In this document: piece after piece, positions 1 to 15,757 of the stretch
Numbering within the stretch: position 1 is the stretch's first letter
Layout: each line of letters starts with the position of its first letter
DNA from: a virus
IMG/VR virus record: IMGVR_UViG_3300048930_000277
Span: 1-38,033 of that record
Direction: 5' to 3' (one strand)
Length of the DNA: 38,033 nt
Program-made: the position numbers and the translations under genes
The notes under the pieces: generated by a model
What the model was told of the DNA's origin: nothing
Database searches by the model: none
What the model saw: the letters and a program-made list of their open reading frames with translations, nothing else

Positions 1-127
1 TTTGTCCAAAATAGAATTGTCCAAATCCGAAAAAAAAACCGAAACCGATCTGAAAGAAAAGACCATTAGCAAGAATAAGTCCGTTTCCAAAGAGAAACAA
101 GGCAAATTCCCTTGGTGGTGGATAGTG
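1..127. repeat. Terminal direct repeat (copy 1)
   Basis: Bases 1-127 are identical to 37907-38033. A 127-base exact overlap equals a common maximum k-mer size in short-read assemblers, so this is most simply the closure overlap of a circular contig and not a biological terminal repeat. The unit genome would be 37,906 bp. Circularly permuted headful-packaged phage DNA, or a circular episome, would both assemble this way. Confidence 0.9.
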
Positions 128-199
128 ATTGCTTTAGTGCTTTACCTTGCAATTTCCTATTTGAGAAAAACGCTTAATCCTTTGGGGTGGATTGGTTAA
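2..199 (+). CDS. C-terminal part of unimolecular-spanin-like protein
   Basis: This is the 3' third of the gene that starts at 37518 and crosses the contig junction. Positions 2-127 duplicate 37908-38033, and 128-199 hold the last 23 codons and the stop. It has no start of its own: the TTG at 2 is an internal codon. The segment is a Lys/Glu/Ser-rich linker followed by a C-terminal membrane segment (about WWWIVIALVLYLAISYL) and a short tail ending GWIG. With the N-terminal lipobox of the other part, this gives the topology of a unimolecular spanin. See the entry at 37518. Confidence 0.85.
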   Translation: MSKIELSKSEKKTETDLKEKTISKNKSVSKEKQGKFPWWWIVIALVLYLAISYLRKTLNPLGWIG

Positions 200-210
200 T
201 TCGTTTTACA

Positions 211-271
211 CGACATTTAGAGGTATAAACGAAACTGTTTTGGTTGTGGTTGCGTTTATACACATGTTAGC
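211..271 (-). repeat. attC-like site at the distal end of the array
   Basis: The stem arms are 223-235 and 249-261 (GTATAAACG pairs with CGTTTATAC, 12 of 13 positions), flanked by a GTTAGC core at 266-271. The left core is poor (ACGAC at 209-213). The TAA stop of the 267-728 gene lies inside the core. The right arm plus core (249-271) recurs exactly at 3270-3292. The hairpin also separates the convergent late operon from the array and could act as a terminator, although no T-tract follows it. Confidence 0.65.
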
Positions 272-728
272 GGTCAGCTAAGGAAGACAGCATCACGCCA
301 GTAAGACAGTAGTAGAAATTTTGCAATTCGTGGACAAACTCCATTTTGCTAAATCTATGACCCTCAAAATCGAAAGTATAGGTGTTGTTCCATTCGCCTT
401 TTGAAAATGGTTTTGATAACACAAAATCAAGTATCATTCCACCACTCTTAAAGTCCTTACCTATGTATCCATTTTTATAGTCTTTGTCGGAAAATCCAAA
501 CTTCAAAAGCCACTCTTCGGTTAATGGAATAGGCGAATGAACAAGATTAAATCCTTTCGGGTCTTCGGTAAGCCATTTAAGGTCTTGCCAGTCTATTACG
601 GTAGGCAAAATTTCTCCTTCTGCTGTATCGTAATTTAAAATGTTTCCGCACTTCAAATCGTGGATTGAAAAAGCCGAACCGCTAACAGCAGTTTGGCAAG
701 ATGCGGGGTTTTGTACTTCGTTTGACAT
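267..728 (-). CDS. Cassette protein, 153 aa, IPLTEEWLLKFGF family
   Basis: The function is unknown. The body carries DLKCGN near the start, PIPLTEEWLLKFGF in the middle and VHELQNFYYCLTG at the end, a pattern I associate with a widespread small Bacteroidetes/phage family whose members usually begin with Met just before an equivalent of DLKCGN. That Met is absent here. The only ATG lies 14 codons upstream of the recombination core, inside the preceding attC-like site, and residues 1-14 (MSNEVQNPASCQTA) are encoded by the site's loop and arm. Val15-Ser16 are the core GTT-AGC. The TAA stop lies inside the GTTAGC of the next site (266-271). It is the last cassette of the array. Confidence 0.75.
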   Translation of the reverse strand: MSNEVQNPASCQTAVSGSAFSIHDLKCGNILNYDTAEGEILPTVIDWQDLKWLTEDPKGFNLVHSPIPLTEEWLLKFGFSDKDYKNGYIGKDFKSGGMILDFVLSKPFSKGEWNNTYTFDFEGHRFSKMEFVHELQNFYYCLTGVMLSSLADR

Positions 729-812
729 ATTGTGCTAAATTTTAAGTTAAGTAATTCTAATCGGCTTTAGTGCTGAAAGTCCCGCACCTCGCCAAGCTGC
801 GGAACGTTAGCA
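681..812 (-). repeat. attC-like site with leader ATG in the loop
   Basis: Cores are GCTAAC at 681-686 and GTTAGC at 806-811. The arms around 690-707 (TTTGGCAAGATGCGGG) and 781-796 (CCCGCACCTCGCCAA) pair with two G/A transitions. The loop of about 75 bases contains, on the minus strand, an A/T-rich leader and the ATG (728) of the next gene. Length is about 131 bp, within the usual attC size range. Confidence 0.8.
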
Positions 813-818
813 CCAATA

Positions 819-1070
819 CTAAGAAACATCGTTCGTTTCAAGAACATCACTTTTCTTGGTACTCATAAAACTTGGCGTTAATGGCTGGTTAAAAGTCAGT
901 AAGCAAAGCCAAACTTCACCTTTCAATAAAATCCTTAGCCGTTCCCTAAATGTCAATTTCCAGCACGTTACTACCTCGCCTTTTTCATCCCTAAACGCTG
1001 GTAATTGATTATATTCTGGTTGGTCTTTTGCAAATGTTACATTGCATTCTTTAAATTTTGTTGGTTTCAT
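819..1070 (-). CDS. Hypothetical cassette protein, 83 aa
   Basis: The start is ATG at 1070 (MKPTKFKE). A longer reading from TTG at 1094 would overlap the upstream gene and is not preferred. The TAA of the upstream gene (1072-1074) is one base from this ATG, so the two are probably translated together. The sequence has KDQPEYNQLPAFRDEKG, TCWKLTFRERLRILLKGEVWLCLLTFNQPLTPS and a polar tail. I recognise this as a recurrent small unknown in Bacteroidetes and their phages, where the LTFRERLR...GxVWLCLLTFxQPLxPS pattern is conserved. No catalytic motif is visible. Confidence 0.75.
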   Translation of the reverse strand: MKPTKFKECNVTFAKDQPEYNQLPAFRDEKGEVVTCWKLTFRERLRILLKGEVWLCLLTFNQPLTPSFMSTKKSDVLETNDVS

Positions 1071-1071
1071 A

Positions 1072-1395
1072 TTATTTAAAATTAGATTGTTCAACGTTTG
1101 CTACTGTAATAAATCCACGTTCTAATTCAGAAATAATCCAGCGTAAATGCTCGGCACTATCCCTAAATCCTTTTTCGTGTGCTAAGTGTATGTTTCCTAC
1201 CAATCCCTGCACAAGAACGTTAGATAAAACCTTAGAACCTGCTTCGGTGGGCAAATCTTCTTTATCTAAATATTGGTGTCTTACTAAGTTATCACTAACC
1301 CCCAGATTGAAATCCGTTGCTACGTGTTTCGAGGTTGTCATTTCTTTTTTGTGTTCTAAAGTGAGAACTACTTTTGCTTCAAATGAAAATTCCAT
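1072..1395 (-). CDS. Hypothetical cassette protein, 107 aa
   Basis: ATG at 1395 follows the attC-like site at 1436-1517 by about 40 bases, so this cassette has its own start. The protein is soluble and of mixed charge, with no membrane segment or Cys motif. Its C-terminal half (SNVLVQGLVGNIHLAHEKGFRDSAEHLRWIISELERGFITV) looks alpha-helical. It is followed with one base between by the 83-aa gene, making a two-gene cassette. I do not recognise a function. Confidence 0.7.
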   Translation of the reverse strand: MEFSFEAKVVLTLEHKKEMTTSKHVATDFNLGVSDNLVRHQYLDKEDLPTEAGSKVLSNVLVQGLVGNIHLAHEKGFRDSAEHLRWIISELERGFITVANVEQSNFK

Positions 1396-1435
1396 ATTAT
1401 TGTTTTTAAATTAAATTGTGAGTGAAAGTACTGGT

Positions 1436-1517
1436 GCTAACAAAGGCTAAAAAACATAGCCAATTAACATTGTGCTGATTACATATCGCACGATATTTTA
1501 GCCCTGAGACGTTATTC
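1436..1517 (-). repeat. attC-like site
   Basis: Cores are GCTAAC at 1436-1441 and GTTATT at 1511-1516. Arms GGCTAAAA (1445-1452) and TTTTAGCC (1496-1503) pair perfectly. Read on the minus strand, the spacer between the first core and its arm is 7 nt and on the other side 3 nt, the same asymmetry as at other sites. The loop holds a small palindrome (ATATCGCACGATAT, 1483-1496). No usable leader ATG runs through this site. Confidence 0.75.
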
Positions 1518-1616
1518 ACTTTCAGCCACACACCCACATTCCTTACAGATAAACATATCCTTTAATTTGTACATTGTGGAGTTACAGTAGGCACTCTTTA
1601 GATCGGTTGAGGTCAT
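1512..1616 (-). CDS. Small Cys-rich peptide, 34 aa (CxxCxC)
   Basis: ATG at 1616-1614 overlaps the TGA of the upstream HTH gene (ATGA). The TAA stop (1514-1512) lies inside the GTTATT core of the next site. The product MTSTDLKSAYCNSTMYKLKD continues to a CKECGC motif and ends AESE. Four cysteines suggest a small zinc-ribbon-like or redox fold. Two junctions of this kind in so short a frame argue that it is real. Function unknown. Confidence 0.55.
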   Translation of the reverse strand: MTSTDLKSAYCNSTMYKLKDMFICKECGCVAESE

Positions 1617-1807
1617 ATTTCAAAAATTTCATCTTGCGTTAAACCTGTATGCTGTTTTATTGCTTCGATTGTCTTTATAGTTGTCAATCGGTCGCTGTCA
1701 TCTCTTATCCAGTTCCTAATGGTGGATATTGATTTTCCTGTACTAAGTGATAGTTTTAGCTTTACATCCTCTGTAATGGCTTTTCTTGCTTTTTTTGATA
1801 GTTTCAT
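1613..1807 (-). CDS. Small helix-turn-helix protein, 64 aa
   Basis: ATG at 1807. The sequence KARKAITEDVKLKLSLSTGKSISTIRNWIRDDSDRLTTIKTIEAIKQHTGLTQDEIFEI fits a compact Cro-like/lambda-repressor-like fold: helix, a turn with STGKSISTIRNWI as recognition segment, then a C-terminal helix. It is translationally coupled (ATGA) to a 34-aa Cys-rich peptide. It could be a regulator of its own cassette or an antitoxin-like partner; neither is shown. The upstream minus-strand leader (1808-1913) is A/T-rich and holds a 10-codon mini-ORF starting at about 1870. Confidence 0.7.
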   Translation of the reverse strand: MKLSKKARKAITEDVKLKLSLSTGKSISTIRNWIRDDSDRLTTIKTIEAIKQHTGLTQDEIFEI

Positions 1808-1913
1808 ATTTAAATATTTTTTATATCCAATATCTTTTAAGTATTGTTCGTGTTTTTCTTTTGTGTCATAGTTTTAAAGTTTAATTCCGAACTGATTTGG
1901 TTGATTTTCTGGC

Positions 1914-1991
1914 GGGTAACACGGTATAAAAAACAGTTGCCAAATTCTCTGTACGGATAGGCAACCGTTTCTTATACCCATTCCGTTATAT
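1914..1991 (-). repeat. attC-like site, long stem
   Basis: Cores are GGGTAAC (1914-1920) and GTTATAT (1985-1991). Arms 1923-1941 and 1961-1979 pair at 17 of 19 positions (GGTATAA...GTTGCC with GGCAAC...TTATACC). On the minus strand the spacers are 6 and 2 nt. The loop is short, about 19 nt. An open reading frame starts in the arm (ATGGGTATAAG) and passes through the site but does not join the HTH gene. Confidence 0.8.
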
Positions 1992-1997
1992 GCAATG

Positions 1998-2327
1998 CTA
2001 TGACTGCATACCGTTCAAAAACTTTTCTACACTCTTGTAAGTGTTCCGATGTATCTCTTGCCAACTGTCGGTATCTTCACCAAGCCTTTCAATCTTATCA
2101 ATACCTTCAACACCTATTTGACAATACACCCGAACCATAGATACATCATCACACTTATTTGTGTTTAAGTAATAATAGCCGTTCTTTCTTTCAGCTGAAA
2201 AAGTTTTTTCACTACCAAAGAAACCGTTATCAATATGACCAGCTAATCTTCTCCAATCATCGGAAGATAAATCACTGCATATAACACGGGTTTGGCAAAA
2301 TGGCTGTTCAGTAATTCTATTTGACAT
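1998..2327 (-). CDS. Hypothetical cassette protein, 109 aa, leader supplied by attC
   Basis: ATG at 2327 lies in the loop of the preceding attC-like site. Residues 1-14 (MSNRITEQPFCQTR) are site-encoded, and Val15-Ile16 are the core GTT-ATA. The leader matches that of the 267-728 gene at MSN, P and CQT plus the core Val, reflecting related sites. The body (from CSDLSSDDWRRL) is soluble, with aromatic residues and a C-terminal helix, and no motif that I recognise. It ends with TAG just outside the next core. Confidence 0.7.
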   Translation of the reverse strand: MSNRITEQPFCQTRVICSDLSSDDWRRLAGHIDNGFFGSEKTFSAERKNGYYYLNTNKCDDVSMVRVYCQIGVEGIDKIERLGEDTDSWQEIHRNTYKSVEKFLNGMQS

Positions 2328-2403
2328 TTGTTTTTAATTTTAAAGTTTAGTAATTCTATTTAGCATCGGGTTCAGCCACTTCGCCAAGGATAATCCGATA
2401 GCC
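2279..2403 (-). repeat. attC-like site with a mutated core
   Basis: The left core ATATAAC (2279-2285) is followed by an arm at 2287-2306 (CGGGTTTGGCAAAATGGCTG). The right arm is 2373-2387 (CAGCCACTTCGCCAA). The right core is GATAGCC at 2397-2403, where GTT has become GAT. In canonical integrons the GTT triplet is required for strand exchange, so this end may be dead. The loop carries the ATG of the 1998-2327 gene behind an A/T-rich leader. Confidence 0.65.
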
Positions 2404-2410
2404 TGTGCGT

Positions 2411-2563
2411 TTAAATCTTTTTCTTTTCTTTTTCCCAACGCTCAATAAGAAATCCGATTAATCCAGAAATATTTTCCTTACCAAATAACTCCTTTGATAA
2501 AGAACGAGCCTTCTCCTGTTGTTCAGGAGTAAGGCTTATCGTTACTTTTTTAGTGTTGCTCAT
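2411..2563 (-). CDS. Ribbon-helix-helix protein, 50 aa
   Basis: ATG at 2563 lies two bases after the TAA of the 87-aa gene, so the two form a short operon. The product begins MSNTKKVTISLTPEQQEKAR and continues SLSKELFGKENISGLIGFLIERW with a basic tail. The beta strand (KKVTISL), helix (PEQQEKARSLSKELF) and second helix after a Gly turn (ISGLIGFLIERWEKE) are typical of CopG/Arc-type DNA-binding proteins. It may autoregulate the pair or be an antitoxin; no toxin fold is recognisable in its partner. Confidence 0.7.
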   Translation of the reverse strand: MSNTKKVTISLTPEQQEKARSLSKELFGKENISGLIGFLIERWEKEKKKI

Positions 2564-2565
2564 AA

Positions 2566-2829
2566 TTAATAATCAAAAATTGATTCATAAGCAGCATTTG
2601 GATAATGCGTATGGTCCATTTCTTCATCTTCGCTCACAAACGTATCATTAGCCAATTCTGCTAAAGTACTTCTGTAAATTGTACTATTTTCAGGATCAGA
2701 AAAAGGCTCGCTAATTCCCCATCTATTAACGTCAAGTGCATACATAGGCTTTCCGTACGTGCTTCTATTGGTTACTACTTGTGCTAATTTAGCTACTTCT
2801 GTTCGGTGGTTTAATAATGCAAAGTTCAT
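2566..2829 (-). CDS. Hypothetical cassette protein, 87 aa
   Basis: ATG at 2829 lies about 40 bases downstream of a well-formed minus-strand promoter (2872-2902). The protein is acidic: it opens MNFALLNHRTEVAKLAQVV, has a central LDVNRWGISEPFSDPENSTIY and an Asp/Glu-rich C-terminus ending ESIFDY. No family is recognised. It is followed immediately by a ribbon-helix-helix gene. The acidic, possibly DNA-mimicking composition next to a DNA-binding partner recalls a toxin-antitoxin or anti-restriction pair, which is speculation. Confidence 0.65.
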   Translation of the reverse strand: MNFALLNHRTEVAKLAQVVTNRSTYGKPMYALDVNRWGISEPFSDPENSTIYRSTLAELANDTFVSEDEEMDHTHYPNAAYESIFDY

Positions 2830-2871
2830 AATTTTCTGTTTTAAGTTGAAGCTTCATTGCTAACAACACTT

Positions 2872-2902
2872 CAAAGATAAGTATTTAATTTGTATTTACA
2901 AA
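2872..2902 (-). promoter_or_regulatory. Internal array promoter (TTTG-N19-TATCTTTG)
   Basis: On the minus strand TTTG (2902-2899) is followed after 19 nt by TATCTTTG (2879-2872), matching the Bacteroidetes primary-sigma consensus TTTG...TAnnTTTG. Transcription would start near 2866 and reach ATG at 2829. This gives the distal half of the array its own promoter. A lone GTTAGC core (minus strand, 2864-2859) lies at the predicted start. Confidence 0.65.
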
Positions 2903-2906
2903 CTAT

Positions 2907-3017
2907 TTATAAAAAATATTTTTCCACCCCTAAAAAGAAAAGAAAAAGTGTCCGTGCTAAATTGAAAGTGAGTGCTTTTAATACCGCACCAGACACACAA
3001 CAATGTATAACCGCCAT
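2907..3017 (-). CDS. Possible small hydrophobic peptide, 36 aa
   Basis: A frame opens with ATG at 3017 in the loop of the short attC-like site and runs 36 codons (starts MAVIHCCVSGAVLKAL, ends GVEKYFL). The second half (LARTLFLFFLGV) could cross a membrane. It ends just before the promoter at 2902. Too short to be sure; it may simply be an open stretch through a recombination site. Confidence 0.3.
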   Translation of the reverse strand: MAVIHCCVSGAVLKALTFNLARTLFLFFLGVEKYFL

Positions 3018-3047
3018 TAAAACGAGCGGTTATACTCAACGTTATCT
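2995..3047 (-). repeat. Short attC-like site
   Basis: Perfect 10-bp arms GTATAACCGC (3005-3014) and GCGGTTATAC (3026-3035) are flanked by CACAAC (2996-3001) and GTTATC (3041-3046). On the minus strand the spacers are 5 and 3 nt. At about 53 bp it is near the lower attC size limit. Its loop (CATTAAAACGA) is the same as that of the site at 4358-4409, so the two are recent relatives. Confidence 0.8.
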
Positions 3048-3198
3048 ACTCATTAAACTCATCTTTCCAAAGGTGCGCAATGGCGAACTTTACGAAAGAA
3101 GTTAGACCTCCGCGCCCTGTATAGTGCCGTGCTATTCTGTCAGCTTTTTTCGCTTCCTCAATCGTGTATTTTATCGATCCTTGTTTTGTTTTGCTCAT
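3046..3198 (-). CDS. Small basic protein, 50 aa, RHH-like
   Basis: ATG at 3198; the TAG stop (3048-3046) shares one base with the GTTATC core of the next site. The product begins MSKTKQGSIKYTIEEAKKAD and continues with RIARHYTGRGGLTSFVKFAI, ending HLWKDEFNE. A strand (GSIKYTI), a helix (EEAKKADRIARHY), a Gly turn and a second helix (LTSFVKFAIAHLW) match the arrangement of the ribbon-helix-helix protein at 2411-2563. Probably a DNA-binding protein; the target is unknown. Confidence 0.6.
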   Translation of the reverse strand: MSKTKQGSIKYTIEEAKKADRIARHYTGRGGLTSFVKFAIAHLWKDEFNE

Positions 3199-3248
3199 AA
3201 TTTTAGGTTTTAATTGATTTCATAAATTAAATTTTTAATAGTTTTATT

Positions 3249-3293
3249 GTGTATCATATTACCACTTTAGTTGCGTTTATACACATGTTAGCC
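3249..3293 (-). repeat. Degraded attC-like site
   Basis: The right half is intact: 3270-3292 is identical to 249-271, including GTTAGC at 3287-3292. The left arm is reduced to GTGTAT (3249-3254), which pairs with ATACAC (3279-3284). The TAA of the 3288-3527 gene lies in the core. It looks like a site that has lost its other half. Confidence 0.5.
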
Positions 3294-3527
3294 ACCATTT
3301 GATGACCATTCATTAGGAAAATTATCTACTGAAAGAATTGGCTTATTAGCACACTCTTTCATTTTATCCAATACCCAATTTATACCTTCTATACTTTCAG
3401 CCCCTACAATTACGCCATTTGCAGTATAACTATTTACCTTCCCTTCTTCATCGTAATAAACCTCGTGTATTTGAAAAAACCAACCATCACCATCTTTGTG
3501 TGCTAATATTCTGTGATTCCAACCCAT
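3288..3527 (-). CDS. Hypothetical cassette protein, 79 aa (NHRILAHK...FQIHEVYY)
   Basis: I chose ATG at 3527, 14 bases inside the cassette after the GTTAGCC core, over a GTG at 3560 that lies in the attC arm. The TAA is inside the GTTAGC core of the next site. The sequence has NHRILAHKDGDGWFFQIHEVYYDEEGKVNSYTANG and a helix with LDKMKECANKPIL. I recognise this as a recurrent small family of unknown function in Bacteroidetes, probably an all-beta domain followed by a helix. This cassette has the standard integron layout: core, short leader, ORF, stop in the next site. Confidence 0.75.
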   Translation of the reverse strand: MGWNHRILAHKDGDGWFFQIHEVYYDEEGKVNSYTANGVIVGAESIEGINWVLDKMKECANKPILSVDNFPNEWSSNGG

Positions 3528-3539
3528 AATAAAAACGGT

Positions 3540-3661
3540 GGCTAACAAAGTATATAGCACATAGCCTGTTAGCCATTTTTTAAACTATGTGCGGTTATTA
3601 AATTATTTTCTTTTTTGCTTAGGTATGTGAGTGGCTACGTGCCATATACAAACCGTTAGGC
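3540..3661 (-). repeat. attC-like site, 17-bp arms
   Basis: Cores are GGCTAAC (3540-3546) and GTTAGGC (3655-3661), a perfect 7-bp inverted pair except one base and matching the canonical RYYYAAC/GTTRRRY. Arms 3550-3566 and 3633-3649 (GTATATAGCACATAGCC with GGCTACGTGCCATATAC) differ at two positions. On the minus strand the spacers are 5 and 3 nt. The loop carries an ATG (3576) whose frame enters the core as GTT-AGC, but it is out of frame with the cassette gene that follows. Confidence 0.85.
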
Positions 3662-3931
3662 AACATTGGAAGCCAACCAATCTACCAAATCACTTACTTT
3701 TTCAAAATCATCTATTCTTGTTTCTCCTTCTTTTATTGTGCAATCGAATTGCAATTCTGCTTCCATTACAATTTCTACAAAGTCAAGGTCGTCCAACCAG
3801 CCTTTTACTTGTTCATCAATTTCAGTATCAGGTGCAATTGTATTAATTACAGATAAACAACGTTGCCTAACATCGGCTATATTCAATGCCGAGTTTTCTG
3901 CTTTATTCAAGTTTTCGTTTTCTTTACTCAT
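3656..3931 (-). CDS. Acyl-carrier-protein-like, attachment Ser replaced by Asp
   Basis: Residues 19-91 read like an acyl carrier protein: a helix (DVRQRCLSVINTI), then WLDDLDFVEIVMEAELQFDCTI, then EGETRIDDFEKVSDLVDWL. ACPs have D-S-L-D before the second helix, with Ser carrying phosphopantetheine. Here residues 47-50 are D-D-L-D, so the carrier Ser is Asp48 and the protein cannot be charged in the usual way. ATG (3931) and residues 1-20 lie in the upstream attC-like site, and Val21-Arg22 are the core GTT-AGG. Without the site the ACP body has no Met start. The TAA is in the core of the next site. It may be a decoy or structural ACP mimic. Confidence 0.7.
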   Translation of the reverse strand: MSKENENLNKAENSALNIADVRQRCLSVINTIAPDTEIDEQVKGWLDDLDFVEIVMEAELQFDCTIKEGETRIDDFEKVSDLVDWLASNVA

Positions 3932-3996
3932 TTTATCTGTTATTTAAAGTTTATACTATTTAATTCGGCACTGAAATATAGCCGTAGCCGTTAGCA
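3865..3996 (-). repeat. attC-like site with leader ATG in the loop
   Basis: Cores are GCCTAAC (3865-3871) and GTTAGCA (3990-3996). Arms 3874-3892 and 3965-3984 (CGGCTATATTCAATGCCGA with TCGGCACTGAAATATAGCCG) pair with one unpaired base and one transition. An extra base in one arm is typical of attC sites, where it sets strand choice. On the minus strand the loop contains AACTTTAAATAACAGATAAA and then the ATG (3931) of the ACP-like gene. Confidence 0.85.
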
Positions 3997-4017
3997 TTCA
4001 TAGCTGACATTCTGCAT

Positions 4018-4317
4018 TTATTCAACATTTATCACTTCACATTCCGAAAAATCAATTCCGTAAGGTAAATAGCTTTCACAACTTGCTACTTCGTCTTTCG
4101 GTCGCTTTATCTTCAATGTCGTACCATTATCCATTACAACAACTATTTCTTCTGCTTTTGGTAGTTCTTTATTCCAAAAGCGATTACAATCTCTTACGTG
4201 TTTAGTTACAGGGTCAATTAATGATTCTAATTCGGTTCTCGCTTTTCTGAATCGCTCCCTAAGTTCTATTTCTTTTTGAATGAGTTGTTTAAACTCCATT
4301 GATTTTTCTTTGTCCAT
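4018..4317 (-). CDS. Hypothetical cassette protein, 99 aa
   Basis: ATG at 4317 lies 40 bases after the preceding core, so the start belongs to the cassette. Residues 1-45 are strongly helical and charged (EFKQLIQKEIELRERFRKARTELESL), probably a coiled coil. The rest contains DGTT-like (MDNGTTLKIKRPKDEV) and an acidic C-terminus (DFSECEVINVE). No recognisable family. It ends TAA at 4018, 22 bases before the next core. Confidence 0.7.
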   Translation of the reverse strand: MDKEKSMEFKQLIQKEIELRERFRKARTELESLIDPVTKHVRDCNRFWNKELPKAEEIVVVMDNGTTLKIKRPKDEVASCESYLPYGIDFSECEVINVE

Positions 4318-4357
4318 ATTTCAATTAAAATTTATCGTTAATAATCCGCTACGAAAT

Positions 4358-4409
4358 GCTAACACTATATAAGCCACATTAAAACGATGGCTTATACTCA
4401 ACGTTAGCG
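4358..4409 (-). repeat. Short attC-like site
   Basis: Cores are GCTAAC (4358-4363) and GTTAGC (4403-4408), perfectly inverted. Arms TATAAGCCA (4368-4376) and TGGCTTATA (4388-4396) pair perfectly. The loop CATTAAAACGA is shared with the site at 2995-3047, as is TATACTCAACGTTA on the right. About 51 bp. The TAA of the 4404-4622 gene lies in the core. Confidence 0.85.
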
Positions 4410-4622
4410 GTAATTCTTGCGAACCTTGTTCAACCATTCTTCCGCTTTATCAAGTATTTCTTCGTGTGAGCCTTCTACATACCTAACACCTTTCACTGTA
4501 TATATTCTTCCGTATGCCATTAGATTTTCTATTATCAAAATTGCTTCTGATAAAGAACTACCGCTAACAACACCTAAATCGCTATTGGCGGTTTCTTCTG
4601 TATTCAAATTTTCGTGTTTCAT
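4404..4622 (-). CDS. Hypothetical cassette protein, 72 aa, leader supplied by attC
   Basis: ATG at 4622 is in the loop of the preceding site. Residues 1-18 (MKHENLNTEETANSDLGV) are site-encoded, and Val19-Ser20 are the core GTT-AGC. The cassette part begins GSSLSEAILIIENLMAYG and continues RIYTVKGVRYVEGSHEEILDKAEEWLNKVRK, a helix-strand-helix arrangement of unknown function. The TAA stop is inside the next core (GTTAGC). Both ends of the reading frame are therefore set by recombination sites. Confidence 0.75.
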   Translation of the reverse strand: MKHENLNTEETANSDLGVVSGSSLSEAILIIENLMAYGRIYTVKGVRYVEGSHEEILDKAEEWLNKVRKNYR

Positions 4623-4693
4623 TGTTACTTTATTTTAAGTTGATAATTGCGTGTTTTAAATCGCCAACAGCGTTTAGCTGCGGCACGTTGGGA
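4562..4693 (-). repeat. attC-like site with leader ATG in the loop
   Basis: Cores are CGCTAAC (4562-4568) and GTTGGGA (4687-4693). Arms CTAAATCGCTATTGGCG (about 4574-4590) and CGCCAACAGCGTTTAG (4662-4677) pair with one unpaired base and one transition. Minus-strand spacers are 9 and 5 nt, again a difference of about 4. The loop holds AACTTAAAATAAAGTAACA followed by the ATG at 4622. Confidence 0.8.
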
Positions 4694-4702
4694 GTGAATG
4701 AC

Positions 4703-4906
4703 CTAAAGGTCGTGTTGCTCCGCTTTAATTTTTTCAGCTAAATAGTCAATATGTTTTTTCAATGACATAACATTTTCTTTATCTAACCAAAAGAATCTAT
4801 CACCGCACATTGGCGCTTTCATTACTATCTCTATTTCGTTTTCAATATCAAAATCAGAAAATGTTATTTCTCGGTTTCCGTGTTTTAACGATAGTGATTT
4901 TTCCAT
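4703..4906 (-). CDS. Hypothetical cassette protein, 67 aa
   Basis: ATG at 4906 follows the preceding core by about 40 bases. Two strands (REITFSDFDIEN and EIEIVMKAP) are followed by FFWLDKENVMSLKKHIDYLAEKI, in which W-L-D/N-K-E...L-x-x-H/L-x-Y-L is a pattern I have seen in small Bacteroidetes hypothetical proteins. No enzymatic motif. It ends TAG, about 10 bases before the GTTGGGA core. Confidence 0.7.
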   Translation of the reverse strand: MEKSLSLKHGNREITFSDFDIENEIEIVMKAPMCGDRFFWLDKENVMSLKKHIDYLAEKIKAEQHDL

Positions 4907-4943
4907 AGTTTAAAAAATTAAGACTCCCGCACCACTCATTCAC

Positions 4944-5116
4944 TCCCAACGGGCAGGGAATGGCAGATGCATCGAGTTAGTTAATATTTATTTGTTAAAT
5001 TCATTTCTTTCTTTAGGTCACTGCACACCAACAATGGATATACCCCATAGATGCACAGCCAAAGCCCCTTGTGTGTATGCTGCGCATCCACGGGGCATAA
5101 TCCCTGCCCGTTATAG
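4944..5116 (-). repeat. Long attC-like site with nested hairpin
   Basis: Outer arms AACGGGCAGGGA (4948-4959) and TCCCTGCCCGTT (5101-5112) are perfectly complementary, with cores TCCCAAC and GTTATAG and no unpaired spacer. Inside, GATGCACAGC (5050-5059) pairs with GCTGCGCATC (5079-5088) at 9 of 10, with CCCC/GGGG extending it. At 173 bp it exceeds the usual attC range. The TAA of the 5111-5413 gene lies in the core. Confidence 0.75.
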
Positions 5117-5413
5117 GGCATTTTGAGAATCCCACCTGTGAACAATCTTACCCGTTTTATGAAATTTAATTTTACTCACAGACCAATGAAGCCATAATAA
5201 GTTTCTTGGGTAATATCCAAGCATTTTAATCGGCTTCCACCATTTAGCCCAATACAATCTAATTTGAAATCCTGATGTATACGGTATTCTTTCGGCTATC
5301 ACATAACCTTTTCTACAATATCTTTTACAGCTTTCAAGGCTTTCGTCCTCAAAAGAAATACCCTGTAAATCTTCGGACATTACTGCGAAACCTTTTCTGT
5401 AACTATCTAACAT
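5111..5413 (-). CDS. Hypothetical cassette protein, 100 aa
   Basis: ATG at 5413 (MLDSYRKGFAVM) is 22 bases inside the cassette after the core at 5441-5435. A second ATG at residue 12 is possible. The protein is basic and rich in aromatic residues (RLYWAKWWKPIKMLGYYPRN, LLWLHWSVSKIKF), with Cys at two positions in ESCKRYCRKG. It may associate with membranes or nucleic acid, but no family is recognised. The TAA stop is in the GTTATAG core of the next site. Confidence 0.7.
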   Translation of the reverse strand: MLDSYRKGFAVMSEDLQGISFEDESLESCKRYCRKGYVIAERIPYTSGFQIRLYWAKWWKPIKMLGYYPRNLLWLHWSVSKIKFHKTGKIVHRWDSQNAL

Positions 5414-5434
5414 TTTGAATGAATTATAAACGCC

Positions 5435-5568
5435 CTATAACCATGTATAAATTCAAGTTGGGGCTTATTAACAACTTGAAACAGTTGTGCTACTTATATC
5501 ATTCGGTGCAGGTTGACAGGGCATCACACTTTAATCCCAACCTGAAATTTATACAGATACCGTTATCT
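5435..5568 (-). repeat. attC-like site
   Basis: Cores are CTATAAC (5435-5441) and GTTATCT (5562-5568). Arms 5444-5462 (TGTATAAATTCAAGTTGGG) and 5536-5555 (CCCAACCTGAAATTTATACA) pair with one unpaired base and one transition. Minus-strand spacers are 6 and 2 nt. It separates the genes at 5569-5862 and 5111-5413. Confidence 0.8.
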
Positions 5569-5862
5569 TCAATTGCTACGTTTACGTTTAAAAAGAAACA
5601 TAAAACAACCTTTGAAGACTAAAAAAACGCATTCTTTTTTCGATAACCAACCTGCTCTATATTCATCAGTAGTTTTTACAACAATATCAACTATTGGATT
5701 AGTCCAAGCATCTCCATCAAAATCCTCTTTATTATTATAAAATTCAATAGTTGCGAATTTGTGCCTTGCTCTGAAATAAAAGAAGTATCCTAAAAAATAA
5801 CCTTCTGCTTGTACAGGACAATTTCCACTTGGTTTATAAATCCATTCAAATATTTTTTTCAT
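5569..5862 (-). CDS. Hypothetical cassette protein, 97 aa
   Basis: I chose ATG at 5862 (MKKIFEWIYKPSGNCPVQAE); a TTG at 5886 is possible but unlikely. The body has GYFLGYFFYFRARHKFATIEF, a Tyr/Phe-rich strand pair, and AGWLSKKECVFLVFKGCFMFLF near the end, giving a duplicated G-Y/W-x-L...F pattern typical of a small all-beta domain that I recall from Bacteroidetes hypothetical proteins. It ends TGA right next to the GTTATCT core (5562-5568). Confidence 0.7.
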   Translation of the reverse strand: MKKIFEWIYKPSGNCPVQAEGYFLGYFFYFRARHKFATIEFYNNKEDFDGDAWTNPIVDIVVKTTDEYRAGWLSKKECVFLVFKGCFMFLFKRKRSN

Positions 5863-5891
5863 AAAATTTAGTTTTAAAACCCGCAACTGAA

Positions 5892-6024
5892 AGATAACAA
5901 GTGTTTGCCGTCAGTGGCAGGATTGGGTTATATCCGAAATATTTCGGCTTATTTAATGTTTTTTAATTTTTATTATCTTCGGTCTTGAAATTGCCACCGA
6001 ACGGCAAGCACTCGAACGTTATCG
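5892..6024 (-). repeat. attC-like site
   Basis: Cores are AGATAAC (5892-5898) and GTTATCG (6018-6024). Arms 5901-5919 (GTGTTTGCCGTCAGTGGCA) and 5992-6011 (TGCCACCGAACGGCAAGCAC) pair with one extra base and two transitions. Minus-strand spacers are 6 and 2 nt. The GTTATCGGGCATAACCT stretch at its right end (6018-6034) recurs exactly at the head of the array (7227-7243). Confidence 0.8.
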
Positions 6025-6130
6025 GGCATAACCTCAACACCTCAGCATTACTGCATTCCTTCCAGTCATTCCGTAACGCTTCGGGTTTCGCATACGAAAA
6101 ATAAAACTCCGTAAACTACATTTTCCCCAT
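5963..6130 (-). pseudogene. Small cassette frame interrupted by an early TAG
   Basis: From ATG at 6130 the frame reads M-G-K-M, then TAG (6118-6116), then stays open for 50 codons (FTEFYFSYAKPEALRNDW and on through LRLCPITFECLPFGGNF) to TAA at 5963. The second half crosses the GATAAC core and arm of the site at 5892-6024. A single TAG-to-TGG change would give a 55-aa protein. It could be a decayed cassette gene, an amber-suppressed gene, or a chance open frame. No other in-frame ATG exists downstream. Confidence 0.4.
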
Positions 6131-6146
6131 TTTTCTAATGCCCGAT

Positions 6147-6640
6147 AACGAATGGGGGCTACTCATTAAAAGAGCCTATGCACCACCTGCGGTGGCGACT
6201 TTGATAAATTTTAATTTTAATTCTCTGCATCTTATCAAAAATTCATCCTTTTCACCAAATCCATTATATCCAATCCCTCTTGTTCCAATTGAATAACCGT
6301 TAAAATTTCCTTGATTTATTTCAACTAAATCGTTCAATCGGCAACCATCGCTGATAATGTCTATGTACCCAGCGTATCTTATTCCTTTTTGTATTTCATC
6401 CCAAAGAAAATTGTAGTCTTCAGAAAGGTTATAATTGATTTTTCCTGTTGGCATAATTTCTATTTATTTAGTTAATTAATTCCACGTTTTATTTTTAGTA
6501 TGTACGTTACGCCCGACAACACGGGCTAAATAATATTGCTTCGCAAAGGCTATTTTAATGAATGTTGCTTTCGTGCTTCCCGCAATTCAAACAAGTTTGA
6601 TTGCTCACGCACACGCAACATTACTTAGCCCCCATTCGTT
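6147..6640 (-). repeat. 15-bp perfect inverted repeat around the 92-aa cassette
   Basis: AACGAATGGGGGCTA at 6147-6161 and its exact complement at 6626-6640 enclose the 6176-6454 gene. The right copy is also the arm and core of the site at 6514-6644. Read on the minus strand, the left copy is an L'-R' half-site ending GTTATCG. The arrangement looks like one recombination site split by insertion of a cassette into its loop, or like small terminal inverted repeats. Confidence 0.6.
6176..6454 (-). CDS. Hypothetical cassette protein, 92 aa
   Basis: ATG at 6454 (MPTGKINYNLSEDYNFLWDE). The body includes GIRYAGYIDIISDGCRLNDLVEIN, a Gly-rich central stretch (GYSIGTRGIGYNGFGEKDEF) and LIRCRELKLKFIKVATAGGA at the end. 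Small alpha/beta protein without known motifs. It is flanked by a 15-bp perfect inverted repeat and ends TAG before the half-site at 6161-6143. Upstream, within the site at 6514-6644, a 23-codon minus-strand frame precedes it but is not joined to it. Confidence 0.65.
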   Translation of the reverse strand: MPTGKINYNLSEDYNFLWDEIQKGIRYAGYIDIISDGCRLNDLVEINQGNFNGYSIGTRGIGYNGFGEKDEFLIRCRELKLKFIKVATAGGA

Positions 6641-6644
6641 ACCT
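6514..6644 (-). repeat. attC-like site
   Basis: Cores are CGACAAC (6514-6520) and GTTACCT (6638-6644). Arms 6523-6539 (GGGCTAAATAATATTGC) and 6615-6631 (GCAACATTACTTAGCCC) differ at two positions. Minus-strand spacers are 6 and 2 nt. It lies between the methyltransferase gene and the 92-aa gene. Confidence 0.8.
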
Positions 6645-6650
6645 GCCATT

Positions 6651-7163
6651 TTAAAGACCGACATAGTAACCATTTAATTGACAATTTTTAAGTGCTTGAC
6701 AATTCTGTTCTCCATAAGCAAACAAAACAACGCCTCTCATTATTGATACAGGCGACATATCCATTCTTGTAAACTTTGGTCTGCCTTTCAATAAATACAT
6801 TCCGTTTGCCTTTTTTAATCCGTATTCTTGAAACCAATCCGTATCAGTAGAGTTTAGCACTAATGCAATTCCGTTTCCGTGTTCAGCAAGTTTTTTAATA
6901 AACGGCTTTGGATTTGAATATGGTGGATTTAACCAAACTCTACCACTCCATTCTTCAACCAATCCATCATCAGGCAGCGAAATTATTTTGTTTGCTGTTT
7001 TGTGCCATTGTAAACCACAAGGGTCTAAATCAAATACCCCAAAATTGTCAATTAAATCAAGCGGAGTAAGTGTTATATTTTTATCCTCAACCGAATGAAA
7101 AACGGCAGGTAACACGGGTTTGGCAAAATTGCCGTTTTCATTTTCAAATAAACTATTTTCCAT
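6651..7163 (-). CDS. Dam-type DNA N6-adenine methyltransferase
   Basis: Residues 21-170 match the phage DNA N6-adenine methyltransferase family (DNA_N6_adenine_methylase, as in T1 Dam): DLDPCG (45-50) in the AdoMet-binding region, the catalytic NPPY at 79-82 (RVWLNPPYSNP), ALVLNSTDTDWFQ and GRPKF downstream. It would transfer methyl groups to adenine in phage or host DNA, usually to evade restriction. Length (170 aa) is usual for the family. ATG (7163) and the first 17 residues are encoded in the attC-like site at 7107-7233. Unlike the other fused cassettes, the core GTT is not codon-aligned here. It is the first gene after the array promoter, so probably the most strongly expressed. Confidence 0.88.
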   Translation of the reverse strand: MENSLFENENGNFAKPVLPAVFHSVEDKNITLTPLDLIDNFGVFDLDPCGLQWHKTANKIISLPDDGLVEEWSGRVWLNPPYSNPKPFIKKLAEHGNGIALVLNSTDTDWFQEYGLKKANGMYLLKGRPKFTRMDMSPVSIMRGVVLFAYGEQNCQALKNCQLNGYYVGL

Positions 7164-7233
7164 AAATTCAACTTTTGTTTTTCAATTTAACTTTTGTGTT
7201 CGGCAACTTCGCCAAGCCCGAGAAACGTTATCG
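7107..7233 (-). repeat. attC-like site at the array head (attI position)
   Basis: Cores are AGGTAAC (7107-7113) and GTTATCG (7227-7233). Arms 7115-7134 (CGGGTTTGGCAAAATTGCCG) and 7201-7220 (CGGCAACTTCGCCAAGCCCG) pair at 17 of 20, the differences being transitions. It sits between the array promoter and the first cassette, where an integron would have attI, but it has attC form. Its loop carries the ATG of the methyltransferase gene. The left arm is related to the site at 2279-2403. Confidence 0.82.
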
Positions 7234-7248
7234 GGCATAACCTTACCA

Positions 7249-7283
7249 CAAAGATAAACCAAAAAATAATAATAATAAACAAA
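7249..7283 (-). promoter_or_regulatory. Array promoter (TTTG-N23-TATCTTTG)
   Basis: On the minus strand TTTG (7283-7280) and TATCTTTG (7256-7249) match the Bacteroidetes consensus with a 23-nt spacer, at the long end of the accepted range. The -7 octamer is identical to that of the internal promoter at 2872-2902. Transcription would begin near 7243 and enter the array through the first attC-like site, a role comparable to Pc in integrons. Confidence 0.6.
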
Positions 7284-7289
7284 TAAAAT

Positions 7290-7324
7290 TTATTTTCATA
7301 GTAAATATTTTCTGTTTACATTTG
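7290..7324 (+). promoter_or_regulatory. Early operon promoter
   Basis: TACATTTG at 7317-7324 fits the -7 consensus TAnnTTTG. The -33 region near 7291-7297 (TATTTTC) is weak. It would drive the early plus-strand genes starting with ATG at 7347. It is back-to-back with the array promoter, so the 40-bp A/T-rich interval between them is a likely control region. Confidence 0.5.
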
Positions 7325-7346
7325 CCTAAACCAAAACACAAAAGAT

Positions 7347-7559
7347 ATGAAAACAGACACGGTTACAGTTTACGGAATTGAATTAGAGGTCAACTATGAT
7401 TTCTATAAGAGTGAGCCATCTACACGGGATTATCCGGGTTCATGGCCAGAAGTAGAGATACAAAGCGTACACGCTGGGGGTGAAGCAAGCATTTACGACC
7501 TTTTGCACGATAGCGTTATCGAAAAGATAGAGGAAAAACTAATCGAAATAAACAAATAA
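7347..7559 (+). CDS. Hypothetical early protein, 70 aa
   Basis: ATG at 7347, about 17 bases after the expected transcript start. It begins MKTDTVTVYGIELEVNYDFY and has HAGGEASIYDLLHDSVIEKIEEKLIEINK at the end: a strand-rich first half and a charged helix. First gene of the plus-strand early operon, followed after three bases by another small gene. Early position suggests a host take-over or regulatory role, but no family is recognised. Confidence 0.65.
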   Translation: MKTDTVTVYGIELEVNYDFYKSEPSTRDYPGSWPEVEIQSVHAGGEASIYDLLHDSVIEKIEEKLIEINK

Positions 7560-7562
7560 GTT

Positions 7563-7760
7563 ATGGCGATCACTATATCGGATAACAGCAAGGAATTGGT
7601 TTCGAGCCTTATAAAAAAAGAGTTCCACGCAATAGACTTTCAATGGGATTACATCGATCATAAGGCGCAAATGCTCATAAAGGCTTGTATGGACTTCGGC
7701 CTTTGGGAACTGGCAAACGAACTGAACGAGATTTACGAATTTGAAATTAACAATTTATAA
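7563..7760 (+). CDS. Hypothetical early protein, 65 aa
   Basis: ATG at 7563. Predicted mostly helical: NSKELVSSLIKKEFHAIDFQWDYIDHKAQMLIKACMDFGLWELANELNEIYEF. Acidic, without Cys pairs or membrane segments. It is the second gene of the early operon, and a terminator-like hairpin follows at 7780-7839. Function unknown. Confidence 0.65.
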   Translation: MAITISDNSKELVSSLIKKEFHAIDFQWDYIDHKAQMLIKACMDFGLWELANELNEIYEFEINNL

Positions 7761-7779
7761 TTATCCCCACAATGACGAA

Positions 7780-7839
7780 GGGGCGGGAAAAGTAATTTTT
7801 TTCATAGTTATTTGGTTAATGATCCCGCTCCTTTTTTTT
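7780..7839 (+). terminator. Rho-independent-like terminator
   Basis: GGGGCGGGA (7780-7788) pairs with TCCCGCTCC (7823-7831) with one mismatch and is followed by eight T (7832-7839). The 34-nt A/T-rich loop is long, so termination may be partial. It would end the two-gene early transcript. Confidence 0.6.
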
Positions 7840-7853
7840 AAACCCCAAATCTT

Positions 7854-7970
7854 ATGGAAAACCGACAAAACGCAATGCAAGAGGGCGCACTTGCCCAAAT
7901 GATTAACGATGCAATAGCATCAATAAATTATGATAATGAATTAAAAAAACGTATATTTATATACAAATAG
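7854..7970 (+). CDS. Small hypothetical peptide, 38 aa
   Basis: ATG at 7854, stop TAG at 7968. The product begins MENRQNAMQEGALAQMINDA and ends LKKRIFIYK. Helical and amphipathic. It lies between a terminator and the SSB-like gene, with 48 bases to the next start. Plausible by codon use and position, but short. Confidence 0.45.
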   Translation: MENRQNAMQEGALAQMINDAIASINYDNELKKRIFIYK

Positions 7971-8018
7971 AGCCGGAGCGCTTACGGCAACTTTAAGCGT
8001 AATTTAAAACTATTTATT

Positions 8019-8699
8019 ATGAGCTGGTTAGACAGACCCGAAAAAAGAAGTGCCAATCCCGCAAAAAAATTCCTTGAATGGAAGAGCGATGAAAAATGTT
8101 TCTCTTACTACGACAAAGAGAAAAAGGAAAACGTAAAAGTGGAGCTTCCATTATCATTTGTTATCTTAGAACATTACCACACCGTTAAAGGATGGAACGA
8201 TAAATCCGAAAGCGGTATCTATTCTAATGAAGTTTTCTCCATTGGAAGCGAAAAGATGGATGTAAAATCTTTTAAAGGTGGTGCAATCGCATCTGGATTT
8301 TATAAGGACATTAAGGAAAACGTAAAAAATGCGGGTGGACATTATAGCCGTTCCATTTATGCCGTTACCAATGACCTTGAAATTGTGAACATTTCACTTA
8401 AAGGATCTGGCGTTTCCGCTTACTCTGATTTCATTAAACTTATTGGCGACAATAATTTTGACAAGAACTGGATAACCGTTAAAAGTGCCGAGCAACTTAA
8501 AAAAGGGAAAGTAACTTATTCAATCCCGGTATTTGAAAAAGGTGCTGAAATAAAGGACAAATCAAAACTTGCACCTTTTGCGCAGGAACTACAGGAATAT
8601 ATGATAGCCTATACTTCAAATGATAAACCGACAAGGGAAAATTCCGCAGTCGATAAGCATTTTGAAGCCAAAGAGGAAGAGGACGATCTTGCATTTTAA
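8019..8699 (+). CDS. Putative single-stranded-DNA-binding protein
   Basis: 226 aa. The body is beta-rich with many Lys and aromatic residues (YGxY-like segments SGFYKDIKENV, HYSRSIYAV). The C-terminus is the strongest clue: an acidic tail EAKEEEDDLAF ending in Phe, the arrangement by which SSB and T7 gp2.5-type proteins recruit replication partners. Position at the head of the replication block, before primase and helicases, fits. I do not see a canonical OB-fold motif by eye, so an alternative is another replication accessory protein. Confidence 0.55.
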   Translation: MSWLDRPEKRSANPAKKFLEWKSDEKCFSYYDKEKKENVKVELPLSFVILEHYHTVKGWNDKSESGIYSNEVFSIGSEKMDVKSFKGGAIASGFYKDIKENVKNAGGHYSRSIYAVTNDLEIVNISLKGSGVSAYSDFIKLIGDNNFDKNWITVKSAEQLKKGKVTYSIPVFEKGAEIKDKSKLAPFAQELQEYMIAYTSNDKPTRENSAVDKHFEAKEEEDDLAF

Positions 8700-8701
8700 A
8701 A

Positions 8702-8851
8702 ATGGGATATTCAAAACAATTATTTGAAAGGTCAAGGCAGGGGAATACACCCCTGCCAAATACCGAAGGAAACCACATTATTAACGAACTACATTTTAAT
8801 TATGGAAACAGTAATACAGAGTACCGCAACGGAAACGATGCGAGAATATAA
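8702..8851 (+). CDS. Possible small overlapping gene, 49 aa
   Basis: ATG at 8702 is two bases after the SSB-like stop, a spacing typical of this operon. The product starts MGYSKQLFERSRQGNTPLPN and is Asn/Gly-rich, ending NDARI. It overlaps the next gene by 50 bases if that gene starts at 8802, or by 14 if it starts at 8838. No recognised family; coding status uncertain. Confidence 0.4.
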   Translation: MGYSKQLFERSRQGNTPLPNTEGNHIINELHFNYGNSNTEYRNGNDARI

Positions 8852-9233
8852 AGAAGGGAATATATCTTTGGAGGACGCTTTAATCCAACTTGAAACCGAA
8901 AGGAATGTTTTAGAGCAGGTTTTGGAAAAGATAAAAAACTTCAAACAGGAATATAGCGGTGAAATTGCCGACCTTGCTAAAGAATATAAAGAAGGATATA
9001 AAGGATTTACTTTTGAAGTGAGAAACGGCGCAAGGAGATTTTCCTATAAAGGGATTCCCGAATGGGAAAATGCTTCAAAAACAGTTAAGGACGTGGAGGG
9101 AAAATACAAATCTATGTTTGAGGCAAAATTAAAAGGTAACCCGCACGCAAATATTTCAGAGGATGGTGAAGAACTTCCATTACCGGAAGTGTCATACGGC
9201 GCGCCCAGCGTGATAGTGAAGGCCAAGAAGTAA
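8802..9233 (+). CDS. Hypothetical replication-block protein, 143 aa
   Basis: ATG at 8802 (METVIQSTATETM); ATG at 8838 (MREYKEGN) is an alternative. Residues 14-60 form a charged coiled-coil-like helix (SLEDALIQLETERNVLEQVLEKIKNF). Then GFTFEVRNGARRFSYKGIPEW and a C-terminal Pro-rich stretch (LPLPEVSYGAPSVIVKAKK). The position between SSB-like protein and primase suggests a recombination or replication accessory factor, but no motif confirms this. A terminator follows. Confidence 0.65.
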   Translation: METVIQSTATETMREYKEGNISLEDALIQLETERNVLEQVLEKIKNFKQEYSGEIADLAKEYKEGYKGFTFEVRNGARRFSYKGIPEWENASKTVKDVEGKYKSMFEAKLKGNPHANISEDGEELPLPEVSYGAPSVIVKAKK

Positions 9234-9257
9234 TTTTATCCCCGGTTAATTTGAATG

Positions 9258-9286
9258 AGCCACCTCTTTATGGGGTGGTTTTTTTG
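9258..9286 (+). terminator. Rho-independent terminator
   Basis: CCACCTC (9260-9266) pairs with GGGGTGG (9272-9278), with one G-T pair, across a 5-nt loop, followed by a run of seven T. It closes the 8019-9233 transcription unit just before the putative origin. Confidence 0.75.
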
Positions 9287-9288
9287 TT

Positions 9289-9520
9289 TGATACACATAC
9301 AACACATTACCGTCCCCCTATATACCCCCCCTGTGGTGGAAAACTGAAATCTAAGAGGGGGGTGTAAAAATCGTTTTCAATGTGTATAACGTGTTGCGTT
9401 CAATGTTTTCTAAGGGTAAAAGCTGAATTATCTATTTTTAACATTATTTCAATGTGTTGCATAAAAAATATATTAAGATAATATTAGTAAATAAATAAAA
9501 AAGTGTTATATTTACATTTC
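9289..9520. other. Candidate replication origin
   Basis: This 300-bp gene-free gap has nested dyads. TGTGTATAA (9381-9389) is a perfect inverted match to the DnaA box TTATNCACA, and TGATACACA (9289-9297) is a one-mismatch copy in opposite orientation. Between them a stem TATACCCCCC / GGGGGGTGTA surrounds TGTGGTGGAAAAC. AATGTGT recurs at about 9379 and 9452. From about 9420 to 9520 the sequence is very A/T-rich, like an unwinding element. The downstream operon encodes primase-helicase and a DnaA-domain-IV-like protein. Alternatively it is an operator region for the HTH gene at 9534. Confidence 0.5.
9513..9520 (+). promoter_or_regulatory. Probable -7 element of the replication operon
   Basis: TACATTTC differs at the last base from TAnnTTTG. 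No convincing -33 element is visible. It would start a transcript close to ATG at 9534 and read into the primase-helicase gene. Confidence 0.4.
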
Positions 9521-14957: not shown

Positions 14958-15085
14958 GCGTAACGCAAATATAAGAAGTTGGGGACTGTCGTGAGCAGTT
15001 GGTCAAGCACCCTACCCCACGGAGCAGATGCCGAAAATGACGGTTAAAACATCGATTCCCCAATTTCTTATATTTTATGTTATAA
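14958..15085. repeat. Lone attC-like site outside the array
   Basis: Arms AAATATAAGAAGTTGGGG (14967-14984) and CCCCAATTTCTTATATTT (15058-15075) pair at 17 of 18. Cores are GCGTAAC (14958-14964) and GTTATAA (15079-15085). Size 128 bp, the same class as in the minus-strand array 7 kb away. The spacers (2 and 3 nt) do not show the polarity of the array sites. It follows an RHH gene and precedes a beta-barrel gene, so the flanking accessory genes may have entered by recombination here. The rest of the gap (15086-15229) has only a weak inverted repeat (TGGAGC near 15111, GCTCCA near 15188). Confidence 0.72.
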
Positions 15086-15229: not shown

Positions 15230-15757
15230 ATGAAATCAAAAATAACAATGTTAATACTGTTATTCACATTAGCAGGACATTCACAGACCGCAGTAGGTCT
15301 GCAAGTAACGCAGGACAATCGTTTATTCCTTTTGGGGGATGACCACGGGAACGATCCGTTAACGCCCGACCTTCAATTTAAAATAGTATTGCAGGGTAAC
15401 GACAGCGACTTGGGGTATTTGGTAGTTGCTCCAAAATACGAATGGGCGCAGTTGTCTGGTGGCGATTATTCACGCTTCGGAGTTGAAGCGGGTTATTCAT
15501 TCCATACCTATATTTTAAAAATTGATGTAACACCGTTAATCGGCTACGGTTATATGTTCAGGCACGACAGCCGTTCGGTAAGTTGGGAGTTTTCAACGGA
15601 AATAAAAATACCGTTGACTAAAAATCTAAGCGTTATAAGCCTTGTGAACGTAAACCAACGGCACGACCTTAAAGATGCCCCTTGGAGATACAATGTAAGC
15701 ACAGGATTGAGGTTTGATATGCCTACGGGATGGAACGGTAAGCAAACACGGTTTTAA
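15230..15757 (+). CDS. Secreted outer-membrane beta-barrel-like protein, 175 aa
   Basis: ATG at 15230 starts a signal peptide (MKSKITMLILLFTLAGHSQ) with cleavage probably after SQ, a typical flavobacterial end. The mature part alternates hydrophobic and polar residues in strands (FKIVLQGNDSDLGYLVVAPKYEW, YSRFGVEAGYSFHTYILKIDVTPLIGYGYMF, SWEFSTEIKIPLTKNLSVISLVNVNQRH) as in small OmpA/OmpW-like barrels, and ends in a Phe. No lysis role is suggested by position. A phage-encoded OM protein could alter receptors or block superinfection. Confidence 0.65.
   Translation: MKSKITMLILLFTLAGHSQTAVGLQVTQDNRLFLLGDDHGNDPLTPDLQFKIVLQGNDSDLGYLVVAPKYEWAQLSGGDYSRFGVEAGYSFHTYILKIDVTPLIGYGYMFRHDSRSVSWEFSTEIKIPLTKNLSVISLVNVNQRHDLKDAPWRYNVSTGLRFDMPTGWNGKQTRF

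Follow-up and report, generated by a model that had tools for sequence, protein, structure and literature searches.

In the window analysed here, the whole 38,033-nucleotide stretch of viral DNA, we found a small gene for a protein with the acyl carrier protein (ACP) fold that has Asp in the place of the phosphopantetheine-bearing Ser. The substitution was present in three copies, and the protein is under purifying selection. Its gene lies on a cassette of defined boundaries, missing from a near-identical phage, and has its start codon in the loop of its own attC site. We are highly confident of these structural and cassette layers of the explanation. The protein most likely binds an ACP-recognising protein without carrying cargo; that it is a carrier-protein paralogue lacking the attachment Ser, which persists as a selected, non-acylatable ACP mimic with a decoy or mimic function, is proposed tentatively, at slightly less than even confidence.

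Carrier-protein identity and the missing serine

The negative-strand ORF was present exactly as given in a first-pass annotation, and the ACP similarity proposed there exceeded chance with NCBIfam, PHROG and hhalign. The ORF matched NCBIfam ACP models (HMM) with E-values of 1.7e-5 to 2.9e-5 and the PHROG ACP family (PHROG 5934) with 2.7e-6, and the suggested profile comparison, run with hhalign between its three-member family and 32 viral ACPs, gave a probability of 94.5% and an E-value of 7.5e-8. Single-sequence searches were marginal, both in Pfam (E 0.015) and with phmmer in the PDB (best E 0.036), where all the matches listed were carrier proteins. The profile match spans residues 46-90, helix I being weakly aligned, and the score of 24 bits is under the 70-bit cut-off of the curated ACP model.

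In every alignment D47-D48-L49-D50 fell on the ACP D-S-L-D, in agreement with the earlier placement of Asp48 on the phosphopantetheine position. The remaining Ser residues (2, 14, 27, 80 and 88) all lie elsewhere; none is close to the start of helix II, so no Ser occupies the true attachment site. Judged by this absence of the acceptor Ser, phosphopantetheinylation at the standard position would be ruled out. The acidic recognition helix II is retained, D47, D50 and E53 being equivalent to D35, D38 and E41 of E. coli ACP, so that the partner-binding surface appears to be kept. The ORF resembles ordinary ACPs (TIGR00517 and PRK00982 models; PHROG 5934) in size, acidity, helix order, predicted fold and a D-x-L-D-x-V-E motif where helix II begins, but differs from them in the Asp, in an extra 20-residue leader, in having two more residues ahead of the motif and another two behind helix II, and in scoring well under the equivalog cut-offs. 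Its net charge of about -14 and pI of 4.05 equal those of ordinary ACPs; thus the first-pass description of an "uncharged mimic" was wrong, and the likeness there drawn between Asp and a permanently phosphorylated Ser is weak because the group on the ACP Ser is no phosphate but a bulky phosphopantetheine arm.

AlphaFold, run with an alignment that contained ACPs, predicted the ACP fold (pLDDT 85) with helices at residues 18-32, 48-62 and 79-90 and a disordered leader; helix II begins at Asp48, and the surrounding helices are kept, as had been claimed. An alignment of the three family members gave a low-confidence model (pLDDT 57). In a Foldseek search of the PDB the top 46 fold matches were all carrier proteins (probability 0.95-1.00, TM about 0.5-0.64, E-values 0.006 or higher), among them ACP subunits of complex I and the Fe-S assembly complex. 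This fold match is supportive and not fully independent, because ACP rows were part of the prediction alignment.

Two close copies of the ORF were found. One, 81% identical over the full length, is in a phage-like contig with an Erf-like recombinase from a Bacteroidota MAG bin (L083); the other, about 80% identical from residue 21 onward only, is in a Chryseobacterium chromosome (L084), lacks the leader and has one premature in-frame TGA. Both keep D-D-L-D; the motif is thus in 3/3 copies, with synonymous differences in the neighbouring codons. Each of these two genomes also has one ordinary Ser-bearing ACP, beside which the ACP model recovered the relative in whole-genome searches. All viral ACPs fetched for comparison have the Ser, one of the two search patterns having included it. 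There was no further copy in 395 Bacteroidota genomes, no homologue of the cassette in phage and plasmid records, and no additional one in a motif search of viral contigs, where the candidate L347 proved unrelated. The gene is considered rare since only three copies were found, one of them with the TGA. Between window and L083 the body showed dN 0.07 and dS 0.71 (dN/dS about 0.1) and is under purifying selection; the 20 codons of the leader showed dN 0.46 and dS 0.22. Gene neighbours differ among the three loci, which share no conserved gene partner. A separate planctomycete ACP-like stretch (L085:4028-4171, LMGLDFVEIVMEVEE) has Gly at the Ser position, and a stop breaks its frame just upstream.

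The cassette array of the phage contig

The contig belongs to a tailed phage, with genes for terminase, portal and endolysin. No Phage_integrase match indicative of a tyrosine integrase was found in the contig, which may be incomplete; the integrase gene of a complete integron is therefore not part of it. Roughly a dozen small genes on the minus strand occupy positions 1-7350, with attC-like sites between them. A detector based on structure only found ten attC-like sites in this array and one at 14958-15085 (shuffles gave 0-1), so that ten to eleven sites with R''/R' cores and an L''/L' stem are present in the window. The single-strand fold of the ACP cassette's attC had z-scores of -2.5 to -3.0, and the other sites were weaker. 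An Rfam search gave no match.

Features of the ACP cassette and of the array in the window
Feature	Position	Strand	Comment
ACP-like ORF, 91 aa	3656..3931	(-)	Asp48 on the 4'-phosphopantetheine Ser position; TAA stop is cassette bases 1-3
Leader of this ORF, codons 1-20, MSKENENLNKAENSALNIAD	3872..3931	(-)	Start in attC loop, then stem; predicted disordered (residues 1-17 low pLDDT)
Body of this ORF, residues 21-91 and stop	3656..3871	(-)	Complete carrier domain; homology to Chryseobacterium copy begins here
attC of ACP cassette, GCCTAACA...CCGTTAGCA	3865..3996	(+)	Long stem; loop contains ACP start codon
attC of neighbouring cassette	3540..3661	(+)	G|TTAGGC core is the other ACP-cassette boundary
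ACP cassette unit	3656..3990	(+)	TTAGGC to G of next core; classical attC polarity, gene reversed
attC with start of gene 267-728 in loop	680..812	(+)	
Gene with MSNEVQNPASCQTAV leader, start in attC 680-812	267..728	(-)	TAA stop within core site
attC-like site	1914..1991	(+)	
Gene with leader MSNRITEQPFCQTRV	1998..2327	(-)	Leader common to L149, there before unrelated body
attC with start of gene 4404-4622 in loop	4562..4693	(+)	
Gene, start in attC 4562-4693	4404..4622	(-)	
attC site	5435..5568	(+)	
attC site	5892..6024	(+)	
attC site	6514..6644	(+)	
attC with start of Dam-like methyltransferase gene in loop	7107..7233	(+)	Gene-5' end of array 1
DNA adenine methyltransferase gene, start in attC 7107-7233	6651..7163	(-)	
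Cassette stretch including ACP	3292..7226	(.)	Unmatched in near-identical phage L096
TATCTTTG	7249..7256	(-)	Fits Bacteroidota -7 consensus TAnnTTTG; consensus match only

The ORF had been called a cassette protein, and it is encoded on a cassette, whose extent follows from the bounding cores, TTAGGC and the G of CCGTTAGCA. Homology between the window and the Chryseobacterium chromosome runs from TTAGGC to CCTAAC only. The near-identical phage L096, 93% identical over window positions 7226-9292 and sharing 164-1481 at 100%, has other cassettes in place of the stretch with the ACP gene.

Some further repeats were noted. An identical 23-mer, GTTGCGTTTATACACATGTTAGC, lies at 249-271 and 3270-3292, at the gene-3' end of both sub-arrays, and also in L096; it has no matching second stem arm and resembles a half-site or a fixed end of the array. 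A 30-nt inverted repeat (83%; 6132-6161 and 6626-6655) surrounds gene 6176-6454 and suggests an inverted or damaged attC. The lone site at 14958-15085 lies among the late genes, well away from the array, has the opposite polarity to the array sites and precedes a gene for a secreted-looking protein (15230-15757).

Reversed genes that start inside attC

The coding strand of a classical aadA-type attC reads AACA...CGTT, with the conserved segment next on the same strand. By this mark the genes were reversed in 85/89 scorable viral (IMG/VR) cassettes, and Bacteroidota chromosomal arrays had seven classical cassettes and two reversed ones among nine. The ACP gene likewise neither runs in the direction of its attC nor ends before it. 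Co-inheritance gave an assignment of sites to genes that is independent of the AACA...CGTT mark: where similar attCs on different contigs had only one flank in common, it was in each case the gene with its start in the site (55 pairs in 9 families, the ACP pair of window and L083 included, versus 0). Neither flank was shared in 70/202 pairs, as in other integrons with similar attCs. The core-adjacent bases, the gene direction in Bacteroidota chromosomes and this co-inheritance all indicate that the leader belongs to the gene's own attC. A leader donated from the upstream cassette over the crossover point, with attCs oriented by gene direction, was rejected, and two independently shuffling modules were dropped as the main reading, because the attC is inherited together with the gene whose start it contains.

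The loop and one stem arm of the ACP cassette's attC encode the first 20 residues. Genes 267-728, 4404-4622 and 6651-7163 have embedded starts too, and inspection showed one for gene 1998-2327 as well. Among 221 oriented sites in IMG/VR contigs fetched by relatedness or attC patterns, 80 had an embedded start, i.e., one followed by at least 25 open codons past the stem, compared with 24.1 (sd 3.6) when the interiors were shuffled and 6 when the sites were read the opposite way; a small group (L086-L097) fetched by a leader-like pattern inflates the 80/221 slightly. The bases upstream of the embedded starts are A-rich and G-poor, unlike those of other ATGs in the same sites. With an A-rich ATG whose frame is open as far as the end of the stem as the sole criterion for picking sites, 69/91 had a frame that stayed open beyond it, the baseline being about 22%. 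At the other end, 37/75 genes stop at the TAAC of the core, versus 5/39 window ORFs outside the array. A phage-specific character of the embedded starts was unsupported (80/221 vs 5/26, P 0.13), and the bodies were not set apart by a lack of alternative start codons. Among further cassettes (L149, L172, L225 and L144), the cytosine-methyltransferase-like members L172 and L225 have 95% identical bodies and different attC leaders, and in L149 the leader of window gene 1998-2327 fronts a methyltransferase body.

Phage clusters of attC sites without integrases (CALINs) have been published by Qi et al. 2023 (PMC9892861), where integron-integrase recombination was shown for other phage attC sites. 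The present array resembles them in having several attCs, no integrase, a tailed-phage genome and DNA methyltransferase cargo. The cassettes in that report were same-direction in two phages, with divergent attC directions in Polaribacter phage P12002L, whereas the genes of the set examined here are reversed and often start inside the attC loop. Translation signals within integron recombination sites are also known from ORF-11 of attI1 and from short ORFs in attC sites (reviewed in PMC8876359); those make separate short peptides that aid re-initiation, whereas here the attC start opens the cargo gene and the site encodes its N-terminus. In the literature searched, which left most subscription papers and all bioRxiv preprints outside reach, we met neither a description of attCs that encode where reversed cargo genes start and their N-termini, nor one of a phage cassette with a Ser-less ACP.

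We put forward, with about even confidence, that Bacteroidota phages harbour attC cassettes of a separate class, in which the genes are turned back to front. In these the attC loop would give the ribosome-binding context, the start codon and a short leader, the gene would cross the stem, and the opposite core would often supply the stop. Such cassettes would need no promoter-proximal start signal of an integron and would function in phage arrays that have no integrase; one cargo would be the Ser-less ACP, a decoy in host metabolism.

Possible roles of the Ser-less protein

For the mimic reading we envisage that a carrier-protein paralogue lost its attachment Ser and came to travel as a mobile attC-type cassette in the integrase-less array of a Bacteroidota phage. 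Since the cassette would supply its own translation start, any insertion point downstream of a phage promoter would allow its expression. In an infected cell the acidic helix II might bind a host ACP-recognising protein; candidates are a holo-ACP synthase, an enzyme of fatty-acid or lipid metabolism, and a regulator gated by ACP. Having no arm, the mimic would deliver no substrate and would block or reset this partner instead of supplying it.

The hosts of this phage are Bacteroidota; MukB belongs to the Gammaproteobacteria. That ACP can be bound independently of the Ser is seen with MukB, which apo-ACP stimulates to an equal degree (PMC8602292). Against the mimic reading, some partners need the phosphopantetheine-bearing Ser for binding: IscS requires S36 of E. 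coli ACP in addition to D35 and D38, and its binding is lost in the S36T variant (PMC13343975), which is not modifiable (PMC3340395).

Another use of the fold would be as a structural adaptor, the Ser-less domain serving as a plain protein-protein module for a phage-encoded or specific host partner outside fatty-acid metabolism. Mitochondrial ACP, a subunit of larger complexes, offers a parallel, to which the complex I and Fe-S assembly ACPs among the fold matches, the strong purifying selection and the loose N-terminal leader could be added; with no gene partner conserved across the three differing neighbourhoods, we judge this unlikely. Still less probable is a DNA-mimic-like acidic protein, e.g., an anti-restriction factor, with the ACP fold as mere scaffold. 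The charge and pI would suit it, a DNA methyltransferase cassette is in the same array, and methyltransferases are frequent cargo both in the examined set and in PMC9892861, but ordinary ACPs are just as acidic, and what is conserved is the motif by which ACP is recognised, not a diffuse acidic surface. That the gene is a functionless, decaying carrier protein which lost its Ser and drifts in the array is comparably doubtful: the ORF is rare and its Chryseobacterium copy is interrupted and leaderless, but the frame is full-length, dN is far below dS (0.07 vs 0.71) between the two phage copies, and the motif is the same in all three. That a short, acidic, helical protein resembles ACPs merely by chance, as the marginal Pfam and PDB E-values and the 24 of 70 bits might suggest, is very improbable given several independent ACP models, the profile-profile result and the retrieval of both relatives alongside true ACPs.

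If the mimic reading is true, a conserved, selected, acyl-incapable ACP would be a natural dominant-negative probe of the host proteins that read ACP. The reversed cassette layout, in turn, would explain how cargo is expressed from integrase-less phage arrays, and it bears on the question of cassette origin, because any ORF joined after an attC stem would gain a start codon.
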